Made by a program: the position numbers and the translations under genes
In this document: in pieces, positions 60,334-62,871 of the stretch
Layout: the number at the start of each line of letters is the position of its first letter
Numbering within the stretch: the stretch's first letter is position 1
The notes under the pieces: model-generated
What the model was told of the DNA's origin: nothing
What the model saw: the letters and a program-made list of their open reading frames with translations, nothing else
The model's database searches: none
NCBI RefSeq assembly: GCF_022919095.1
Contig: NZ_CP095073.1
Location: 1,550,001-1,614,000 of the forward strand
Direction of reading: 5' to 3'
DNA: 64,000 nt
Source of the DNA: Halobacillus salinarum
GTDB taxonomy: Bacteria > Bacillota > Bacilli > Bacillales > Halobacillaceae

Positions 60334-60696
60334 GGGGACGTTACGGATTCGACGGGGATAGGTCGAGCTCGGGCTGCAGGTCGAGGCGACGACTCGTAAA
60401 ACGTCATTTGCCTAAATATAACTGGCGAATCTAACGAAAACCTAGCTGTAGCTGCGTAAGTAGTCTATAGCTGATCCTTCCTGGTATCGCCCGTGTACTA
60501 GATGAAGGGTCTCAAACTAAAGCGGGCTACGCGTTTTTCCACCGCCTGAGGAAAAACGAAGAGACTAATCAGGCTAGCTTCTCGGAAGCCTGTTGATAGG
60601 CTGAAGAGGAAGTGAATGACAATATATCAACTAAGCTTGTAGATGCCCGAGTGCCGATATCTCCGGACGTGGGTTCGACTCCCACCGTCTCCACCA
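60334..60696 (+). ncRNA. ssrA: tmRNA (transfer-messenger RNA)
   Basis: RNA of about 363 nt that rescues stalled ribosomes and tags the nascent protein. The 5' end GGGGACG pairs with CGTCTCC next to an encoded ACCA, and GGACGTGGGTTCGACTCCCACC forms the T arm. The message segment at 60424-60459 reads GESNENLAVAA then stop, so the tag would be Ala-GESNENLAVAA if GGC is the resume codon. The -VAA end fits recognition by ClpX/ClpP, whose protease gene is in the window. smpB lies just upstream. Confidence 0.96.
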
Positions 60697-60720
60697 ATAC
60701 ATATATTGGTGGTTTTTTAA
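60691..60720 (+). terminator. Terminator of ssrA
   Basis: CACCAAT pairs with ATTGGTG over a short loop, followed by six T; it overlaps the encoded CCA end. Confidence 0.75.
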
Positions 60721-60736
60721 TTTGTGTGTAAATAAC

Positions 60737-60775
60737 GCACCATTCTTCTGCTGCAGAAGAATGGTGCTTTATTTT
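60737..60775. terminator. Second strong hairpin downstream of ssrA
   Basis: A 14-bp perfect inverted repeat (GCACCATTCTTCTG 60737-60750 with CAGAAGAATGGTGC 60754-60767) with a 3-base loop and a T-rich tail. It probably acts as a back-up terminator. The remaining bases up to 60894 show no gene. Confidence 0.75.
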
Positions 60776-60894
60776 GTTTAAGAGAAAGCTCCTCTTGATC
60801 TCCACTAAATTTCCTCATTACGTCCCTTTTACCTAACAATTATTTTAGATGCTCAAGTAGTTTTTTAATATTTACTTTGAAAAGCATAGGAATA

Positions 60895-60923
60895 TTGACT
60901 ATCAAATGAATGAAAGATAAAAT
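60895..60923 (+). promoter_or_regulatory. Promoter of the tetR-monooxygenase pair
   Basis: TTGACT (60895-60900), a 17-bp spacer and TAAAAT (60918-60923). Confidence 0.8.
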
Positions 60924-60953
60924 ATGAATGCATTCATAAATGAATAAGTTCAT
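60924..60953. promoter_or_regulatory. TetR-type operator candidate
   Basis: ATGAATGCATTCAT (60924-60937) is a perfect 14-bp palindrome directly after the -10, over the predicted start of transcription. A second inverted repeat, ATGAA-TAAG-TTCAT, follows at 60940-60953. Autoregulation by the adjacent TetR protein is the likely reading. Confidence 0.7.
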
Positions 60954-60970
60954 AATTTGGAGGTGGGAAG

Positions 60971-61606
60971 TTGGCCGGTCTAAGAGAAGAAAAGAAAAAG
61001 CAAACTCAGCTGGCGATCATGGAATCGGCTAAAAAGATTTTCTCGGAAAAAGGGTTTGAAAATGCTTCAATGGTGGAGATAGCAAAGGATGCAGCCGTCG
61101 GCACAGGGACTATATATAATTATTTTTCATCTAAAGGTGCTTTGTTGCTGCAAATATTCTCAGAAGAAACGTCCCGGATGGAGATGAAAGAGCCTCAGAG
61201 GTTAAAAGCTTCTTCAGAGGCTGGACTGGCAGAGAGGATCAGCGAATTTATTTTACAGTTTACAGTGTTATTTTCTCATTACCCTAAAGCTTTTTGGAAA
61301 GAATTGTTCCATGTGATGACAGAAGAAGCACAAGAAAGTATCCATTTAAGACAGGGGTTGTTCGGCTTAGATGAAGACATCATGAAGGATGTGACATCCA
61401 TTATCAGCACCGCATCAGAACAATTTCTTTTGCCTGTAGATCCAGAAGATGCAGCTTATGTAATCTATAGTTCAGTTATGACAGATACACTATTTTATAT
61501 TTACAGCGAGGACATGTCCTATGAAACTTATGCAGGTCGTATTTCCGAGCACATTAAATTTGTATTAGCTGGGAAAATAAAGGGAAGACAGCCTGGATCG
61601 ATTTGA
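60971..61606 (+). CDS. TetR/AcrR-family transcriptional regulator
   Basis: Repressor of 211 residues. The N-terminal helix-turn-helix spans about residues 9-50 (QLAIMESAKKIFSEKGFENA; VEIAKDAAVGTGTIYNYFSSKGALL) and the ligand-binding C-terminal domain is variable. The start is TTG 60971 after GGAGGTGG. It lies 7 bases before the monooxygenase gene and below a promoter with a palindrome at the start site, so it likely controls both genes. The ligand is unknown, perhaps the substrate of the monooxygenase. Confidence 0.88.
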   Translation: MAGLREEKKKQTQLAIMESAKKIFSEKGFENASMVEIAKDAAVGTGTIYNYFSSKGALLLQIFSEETSRMEMKEPQRLKASSEAGLAERISEFILQFTVLFSHYPKAFWKELFHVMTEEAQESIHLRQGLFGLDEDIMKDVTSIISTASEQFLLPVDPEDAAYVIYSSVMTDTLFYIYSEDMSYETYAGRISEHIKFVLAGKIKGRQPGSI

Positions 61607-61613
61607 GGGTTAC

Positions 61614-62810
61614 ATGAGTCAAAAAAAGCTTGATAAGGTGGTTGAAAATATGAAAGTAATGATTGTAGGTGGCGGTATTGCTGGATTAACGTTAGCTTAC
61701 TGGCTGAATAAGAATGGAAATGATGTGAAGATTATAGAAAAAGCCCCGGAATTAAGGACGGAAGGGTATATGCTGGACTTTTTTGGGCCTGGATATGATG
61801 TGGCTGAGAAAATGGGGATCATGAGAAAGTTAAGTGATATTCATTATCCTATCTCAGGCCTGAAATTTCTTAATGAGAATGGAAAAGTGAAATTTGATCT
61901 CCCTTACCAATCTCTTAGAGCTCTTTTGGACAATAGGCATTTTAATTTTATGAGGGGAGACCTGGAACGAGTTTTATACGACTTAGTAAAAGACAGCGTC
62001 GAAATTAAATTTGGAATGACGGTTGATGACGTTTATCAGGATGACCAGCACGTCCATGTAACCTTATCCGATGGGAGTGTTGAAACTTCAGATTTATTGG
62101 TAGGGGCAGATGGAATCCGTTCTAAAGTTCGTTCCTTGGTATTTGGTGATCATAAAAACTACATCAAGTATATGGGATATTATACAGCTGCTTATGTCAT
62201 AGAAAACTCCGGGATGTATAAGGAGCTAAGCGACGCTTTTTACTCCTTGTCGTCTCCTGATCTTCAAGCCTCGGTTTATCCGATTAGAGGAAATAGATTA
62301 GCTACCTTTTACTTATATAAAGCTCCCAAAAAGGATAAGCATTTATCTGGAGCAGCAGCAAAAGATGAATTGAAGGCGCAATTTAAGCAAATGGGCTGGA
62401 TTGTTCCTGAGATGTTGGATAAAGCAGGGACTTCAAACGATTTTTATTTCGATGAGGTTTCCCAAGTAGAAATCCCTCATTGGAGTAAGGATCGTGTGGT
62501 GCTCGTTGGAGATGCGTGTCAAGCAGTCTCCCTCTTGGCGGGCCAGGGGGCTTCGCTAGCTATGACAGGCGGGTATGTACTCGCCCGCAATTTATGTAAG
62601 GATCAAGATGTTCAACAAGCACTACTTCAATATGAAGAGGATTTAAAACCGCAGATTGAAAAGACACAGGAATCCGGAAGAAAATTTGCGCGTTACTTTC
62701 TCCCTGATACGCGCCTAAGAATTTTTATTAGAGACGTTACAATGAGGATTAGTGTACTTCCAGTCATAAGAAAGTTTGTGAATATGAATAGAGCTCGAAT
62801 TCCGAAATAG
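61614..62810 (+). CDS. FAD-dependent monooxygenase
   Basis: Flavoprotein hydroxylase of about 398 residues, PHBH-like. VMIVGGGIAGLTLAYWLNKNG binds FAD, DLLVGADGIRSKVR is the DG motif and RVVLVGDACQAVSLLAGQGASLAMTGGYVLA the GD motif. Relatives include tetracycline-inactivating TetX-like and antibiotic-biosynthesis enzymes, but sequence alone does not show the substrate. Two starts are possible: ATG 61614 (GAGGG 4 bases ahead) and ATG 61650 (AAGGTGG 8 bases ahead), the latter placing the FAD motif at the very N-terminus. Co-transcribed with the tetR gene. Confidence 0.87.
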   Translation: MSQKKLDKVVENMKVMIVGGGIAGLTLAYWLNKNGNDVKIIEKAPELRTEGYMLDFFGPGYDVAEKMGIMRKLSDIHYPISGLKFLNENGKVKFDLPYQSLRALLDNRHFNFMRGDLERVLYDLVKDSVEIKFGMTVDDVYQDDQHVHVTLSDGSVETSDLLVGADGIRSKVRSLVFGDHKNYIKYMGYYTAAYVIENSGMYKELSDAFYSLSSPDLQASVYPIRGNRLATFYLYKAPKKDKHLSGAAAKDELKAQFKQMGWIVPEMLDKAGTSNDFYFDEVSQVEIPHWSKDRVVLVGDACQAVSLLAGQGASLAMTGGYVLARNLCKDQDVQQALLQYEEDLKPQIEKTQESGRKFARYFLPDTRLRIFIRDVTMRISVLPVIRKFVNMNRARIPK

Positions 62811-62871
62811 CAAACGGCGAGTCTTGATGAGGATAGAATTTCAATAGTTAACTAAAAAAAGGAGGGGAAGG

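Follow-up and report, generated by a model that had tools for sequence, protein, structure and literature searches.

A putative TetR-controlled flavin monooxygenase operon with paired operator sites behind ssrA in Halobacillus salinarum

In the genome of the salt-tolerant Bacillus relative Halobacillus salinarum, genes for a TetR-family regulator and a class A flavin-dependent monooxygenase (FMO) lie behind a promoter that carries two adjacent operator-like sites, and we interpret the pair as an autoregulated, inducer-released detoxification operon (with a probability of roughly 0.75). Gene order, promoter–operator geometry, an operator class shared with homologous regulators and the class of the enzyme all come from comparison with related genomes. 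The window, i.e. the whole stretch of 64,000 nucleotides that was analysed, covers positions 1550001-1614000 of the 4.24-Mb single-contig genome. The original prediction had seen here the layout of an inducible detoxification or antibiotic-modifying pair with an enzyme of a family that includes TetX-like proteins. Comparison bears out the layout of a repressor plus a detoxification enzyme (tandem operators, promoter geometry, and related FMOs linked to TetR, AraC/GyrI and MarR regulators), with the caveat that no TetR or AraC homologue lies near five related FMOs; the suggestion of TetX is not supported. A TetR–FMO pair is of a known type; its history of regulator exchange is mildly interesting.

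The two genes and their genomic site

The promoter (60895-60923, + strand) consists of the -35 hexamer TTGACT (60895-60900), a 17-bp spacer and the -10 hexamer TAAAAT (60918-60923). With 10/12 consensus matches it is good rather than exceptional (a scan of 4 kb gave 14 promoter-like sites, compared with 9.8 +/- 3.7 in shuffles), and the perfect 14-bp palindrome that had been predicted is also present. The -10 hexamer ends at 60923 and directly abuts the operator O1 (60924-60937), the perfect palindrome ATGAATGCATTCAT over the expected start site, which stays perfect over 16 bp (TATGAATGCATTCATA, 60923-60938). The second inverted repeat reported just after it was also found: O2 (60940-60953; ATGAATAAGTTCAT) is an imperfect copy with 5-bp arms, 16 bp downstream of O1 and in register with it. 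A ribosome-binding site read from the sequence (GGAGGTGGG, 60959-60967, + strand) precedes the tetR gene (60971-61606, + strand; 211 aa, TTG start), whose product has the N-terminal helix-turn-helix domain of the family (Pfam TetR_N, 53.9 bits, cut-off 24); against NCBIfam it had 22 matches, none of them at its cut-off. A palindrome over the regulator's own promoter, another trait of TetR-family genes, is present as well, as judged by sequence comparison of the shared tandem sites. We infer that TetR binds the O1 palindrome, and it probably sits on the two adjacent DNA sites.

The FMO gene was predicted to begin 7 bases after tetR, which holds for its first in-frame ATG (61614-62810, 398 aa). 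In the Halobacillus relatives of the FMO, the protein begins at the position corresponding to the second in-frame ATG, 61650 (MKV...), and a likely ribosome-binding site, AAGGTGG (61635-61641, + strand, read from the sequence), lies 8 nt before it. We consider 61650 the more likely start, and therefore the gap between the genes is about 43 bases and the enzyme has 386 aa (61650-62810, + strand). The FMO contains the FAD_binding_3 domain (81 bits, cut-off 22), the GxGxxG and GD motifs of class A enzymes (G7, G12, G287, D288) and the FAD-site residues; together with the TetR_N match, this confirms the predicted module of a TetR regulator and a flavin monooxygenase. Its best NCBIfam score was a nearly full-length match to PRK07588 (NF005761) at 363.3, under the cut-off of 454. 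The closest named relatives, both from Halobacillus, share 77% and 75% identity. An AlphaFold model built from a 4-sequence alignment (mean pLDDT 48.8) supports no conclusion here.

Upstream of the operon are smpB and the tmRNA gene ssrA (60334-60696), with terminator-like hairpins at, among other places, 60691-60712 and 60737-60767. Downstream, a CcdC-like gene (PF07301; 62872-63360) begins 61 bases after the FMO gene, with no terminator-like site listed between them, and could be a third gene of the operon; a hisC-like gene (named by eye) follows further on. We examined 14 relatives, drawn from the 40 further genomes in which smpB had a match. GNAT, smpB and ssrA stand together in 14/14, and the FMO, CcdC-like and hisC-like genes are found behind ssrA in none of these 14. 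They have different genes there, in one case a TetR-like gene (31% identity, partial) together with a large transporter-like gene. The stretch behind ssrA (window 60697-62870) is thus a variable site, and we claim no more for it than that. A mobile island at ssrA was considered and rejected: a search for repeats of window 60601-60700 with at least 11 bases found none as far downstream as roughly position 70,000, a range that extends past the end of the window, and the ORFs over the same distance, inspected by eye, included none that looked like an integrase. A role in anti-phage defence was also rejected: PADLOC did not match TetR at all and matched the FMO once, over a short N-terminal part (31.7 bits, residues 1-49). 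At E <= 1e-40, the FMO was found in 5 of 44 genomes of the family and 19 of 397 genomes of the order, own genome included; it is an accessory gene of patchy presence.

This patchiness bears on the alternative that survives best, namely that the FMO hydroxylates a physiological substrate in a biosynthetic or catabolic pathway, of which TetR senses a metabolite. Enzymes for 3-hydroxybenzoate, salicylate and urate hydroxylation belong to the same superfamily, but no evident pathway gene adjoins the pair (ssrA upstream, the CcdC-like and hisC-like genes downstream), and identity to HpxO, 3HB6H and SalA is 21-23%. We regard this alternative as unlikely, and prefer the detoxification operon.

Tandem operators and the lineage of the regulator

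A single palindrome is weak evidence, being only mildly unusual: when the 273-bp intergenic region that separates ssrA from tetR was shuffled 20,000 times with dinucleotides preserved, 860 of the shuffles (4%) contained a 14-bp palindrome and 262 a 16-bp palindrome. In the whole window, perfect 14-bp palindromes number six. Strong evidence comes from the tandem pair, which appeared in none of the 20,000 shuffles. We judge the tandem operator to be real because it is conserved among TetR homologues. Our TetR set has 27 rows, i.e. the window protein and 26 homologues (10 loci at E <= 1e-15 from 101 genomes and 16 loci at E <= 1e-20 from 397 genomes), one of which is a paralogue in the window's own genome, and the 220 bp before each tetR gene were searched (195 bp for one row). 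Two TGAR-N4-YTCA sites, the form of O1 and common to the homologues, were found in 18/27 rows including the window, spaced by 16 bp in all 18, with no other spacing below 60 bp; none of 13,500 shuffles gave such a pair. At five more loci (L061, L062, L063, L065, L024), one of the two sites deviates by a single mismatch. The tandem operator is absent at four of the 27 loci: L066 has one site, and L025, L030 and L060, where tetR lies behind a co-directional gene (one overlap, and gaps of 15 and 136 bases), have none. Judged on these sequences, the spacing appears unusually rigid.

The promoter takes part in this geometry. We scored 21 loci, those where a tandem pair had sufficient sequence upstream of it. 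In 16 of these the best -10-like hexamer directly abuts the first operator, L026 with a promoter score of just 7/12 among them; at L027, L028, L032, L058 and L059 it does not. We also scanned 199 genomes of the order with a stricter tandem pattern and found 6 places in 6 genomes (reversed control: 0), all adjoining tetR genes already in the set; as the pattern was composed after the loci had been seen, this shows its specificity to such tetR genes and not an independent recurrence.

In the TetR tree (27 rows, midpoint root), the window protein groups with ten others (support 98/96) and, within that group, with seven f27 sequences (98/99). All four operator arms are TGAA/TTCA in these 11/11 rows, and in the other TetR group the first site begins with TGAG in 13/13 rows. 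Some arms at L024, L029, L031 and L061 of the TGAG group are TGAA or TTCA, so the half-site difference is a trend and not a rule. Within the first 70 residues, positions 13, 56, 57 and 60 (window protein numbering) split the 11 from the 13 TetRs, and these are only candidates for half-site recognition.

Nine of the ten closest TetRs, all from related genera (L056 is outside this count), share 40-61% identity with the window protein and have tandem TGAA/TTCA operators 16 bp apart, as in the window. Where the window has the FMO gene, these nine are followed by exporter genes: an ABC ATPase gene comes after tetR in 9/9, and a gene for a permease of 740-743 aa comes after it in 8/9, those with a long enough stretch. 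One ATPase and one permease were tested, both from L033, and have the domains ABC_tran, and FtsX and MacB_PCD, respectively. These comparisons suggest that the TetR and its operator cassette come from a lineage that otherwise stands at the head of MacB-type ABC exporter operons. In the wider TetR group, one gene with a tandem operator upstream (one mismatch) stands before an AcrB-type (ACR_tran) transporter gene (L086, 4343-8111).

That the closest TetRs precede ABC exporter genes and not FMOs is the argument for a second alternative, in which the main targets of TetR lie elsewhere and the FMO stands beside it by chance. The tandem matches in the window's genome speak against this. Exact ones number three, at the window site, before the TetR paralogue and inside an ORF; three further places match with one mismatch, two of them inside ORFs and one overlapping an ORF end; and apart from the window site and that of the paralogue, none of these places puts a tandem operator at a promoter. 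For the exporter permease, the genome gave a single match, at 32% identity. Moreover, tetR and the FMO gene are on the same strand, with a short gap and no terminator-like site on the + strand between them. We therefore hold a chance neighbourhood to be very improbable and keep to an operon in which the FMO is the regulated gene. A scan with the single site ATGAATNNNTTCAT gave 18 matches at 15 places, compared with 8 for the reversed control, and is uninformative on this point. The paralogue itself (68981-69640 of the same contig) is 27% identical to the window TetR, has TGAG-type sites in a 16-bp tandem operator and lies between transporter-like and tRNA-synthetase-like ORFs (by eye), with no obvious partner gene behind it.

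Relation to tetracycline destructases

The best matches of the FMO among solved structures are Tet(55), Tet(50), Tet(56-3), Tet(51) and Tet(56) (E 1e-42 to 7e-49), i.e. type 2 tetracycline destructases, likewise class A FMOs. Out of 16 destructase-conserved positions, taken in Tet(50) numbering from the available text of PMC10944477, 14 are matched in the window enzyme, D47 included (window D43); the two misses are I111 (Val) and E102 (Asn99). On these grounds one could take the enzyme for a TetX-like or type 2 destructase and TetR for a tetracycline sensor. The destructase model NF033476 (tet_destruct), however, gave 206.7 bits against its curated cut-off of 550, and identity is 28-30% to the type 2 fragments and 23.5% to Tet(X3).

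In the tree of 30 FMOs, the destructases are represented by fragments that lack the C-terminal end. The window enzyme joins three proteins from Halobacillus and its genus code (100/99), and these four fall within a wider group of 14 rows (90/90, not starred), one of them an enzyme encoded on a haloarchaeal plasmid. Beside this wider group stands another group (100/99) with the five type 2 destructases and other FMOs. Tet(X3), HpxO, 3HB6H and SalA (21-24% identity to the window FMO) sit on long branches. A clade of the type 2 enzymes with the window's 4-row group was rejected (p-AU 6e-57), as was one with 13 rows of the wider group (p-AU 5e-61) and one with the window enzyme alone (p-AU 4e-53), the last being a weak test as it parts the window enzyme from its near sisters; the groups were named after the tree had been seen. 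The placement relative to TetX that the original prediction proposed as a check thus puts the enzyme outside the type 2 clade (p-AU <= 4e-53), with the long branch of Tet(X3) placed unsurely.

The available text of PMC10944477 describes D47 and E102 as conserved throughout the destructases, with different residues in other FMOs. At the position of Tet(50) E102, the clade of the window enzyme has Asn in 13/13 bacterial rows and Ala in the haloarchaeal row. This residue is not decisive, because the E102A variant of Tet(50) retained 80-100% of the MIC (same text) and because five uncharacterised FMOs outside the destructase clade (G222, G347 and those of Agrobacterium, Komagataeibacter and Streptomyces) also carry Glu there; the E102 mark is less exclusive than reported. 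Taking HMM score, tree and residues together, we reject a tetracycline destructase as very improbable, the least probable of the alternatives, and retain the reading of a detoxification enzyme of another kind. In the first screening round described in that text, no sequence outside the two destructase clades conferred resistance, and in the second round one sequence at 55% identity to type 2 did. The chains of PDB 8TWF and 8TWG are listed as 6-hydroxynicotinate 3-monooxygenase; the same text reports them as Tet(56-3) and Tet(56-2). A TetR–FMO layout alone is insufficient for calling tetracycline resistance.

Origin of the pairing, proposed operation and parallels

With the neighborhoods of related FMOs, we were able to compare the regulators that accompany this enzyme. 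The three closest relatives (L001 and L002 of Halobacillus, and G011 of the same genus code) are all found behind a homologue of an AraC-type/GyrI-like regulator (3/3; the two domains were tested on the L001 regulator, the others being assigned by homology). In genus g25, the FMO is present at E <= 1e-40 in 4/14 genomes, each time directly behind a tetR gene. These four pairs resemble the window in gene order, in a related FMO (53-57% identity) and in paired sites with the spacing of the window (a perfect pair in G192, pairs with one mismatch in the remaining three genomes), and differ from it in a TetR of another group (32-35% identity) and in TGAG-type sites. A MarR gene adjoins the related FMO on the Halostagnicola plasmid. 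Divergent TetR genes are the neighbours of the more distant FMOs that Agrobacterium, Komagataeibacter and Streptomyces carry on plasmids. Around the FMOs of G119, G018, G312, G408 and Planomicrobium, the examined stretch contained no TetR or AraC homologue; G119 and G018 have a glyoxalase-family gene before the FMO. A third, distant pair, with the FMO gene ahead of tetR and with proteins 30% (FMO) and 27% (TetR) identical to those of the window, occurs at G028:C1:1694948-1696708 (L009, L030), near a transposase-like ORF (by eye).

A tree that unites the FMO-linked TetRs from the window and from g25 in a single clade was rejected (p-AU 7e-8), and so was one that does the same for the FMOs of these pairs (p-AU 0.004), the groups having been picked after the neighborhoods were seen. 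The TetR–FMO pairing thus has two or more origins, or regulator exchange has re-created it. As the closest TetRs head ABC-exporter operons and the closest FMOs stand behind an AraC-type regulator, the sequences indicate that the pairing in the window probably arose by regulator exchange, separately from the g25 pairs. A wider reading, which we favour with some reserve, is that this TetR subfamily travels with a fixed cassette of promoter and tandem operator (the first TGAR-N4-YTCA site usually touching the -10 hexamer) as a plug-in drug sensor for MacB-type exporters, an RND pump and FMOs, and that two subgroups with different half-sites independently captured the same FMO lineage, here behind ssrA.

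The operon might work as follows. Without inducer, TetR dimers would occupy O1 and O2, abutting the -10 hexamer and covering the transcription start, and would thereby keep tetR and the presumably cotranscribed FMO gene low. A small hydrophobic or aromatic compound would bind TetR and release it, and the freed promoter would yield more repressor and more FMO. With FAD and NAD(P)H, the enzyme would then hydroxylate the inducing compound or a relative of it and so lower its toxicity. Historically, a TetR cassette of the exporter lineage would have been joined to an FMO lineage in which the relatives have different regulators. Since the closest TetRs do not precede FMO genes, the inducer of TetR need not be the substrate of the FMO.

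The pair is a small, complete and testable sensor–enzyme unit. The shared operator class would allow targets to be predicted from sequence for the whole TetR subfamily, and the A/G half-site difference between the TetR groups gives a handle on the recognition residues. The wider consequence is modest, as regulator exchange around detoxification genes is expected. Judged by titles and abstract openings in the open-licence PMC literature, we found no earlier account of such an operon or operator.

A functional parallel may be seen in YetL–YetM of Bacillus subtilis, which the available text of PMC10458429 describes as a repressor and a flavonoid-responsive monooxygenase. In both systems, as far as that text describes the B. 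subtilis one, a dedicated small-molecule repressor adjoins a monooxygenase gene, for detoxification. YetL is of the MarR type and its gene is divergent from yetM (according to a title cited in PMC10458429), whereas the repressor in the window is of the TetR type and co-directional with the FMO gene, and the two enzymes are likened by description only.
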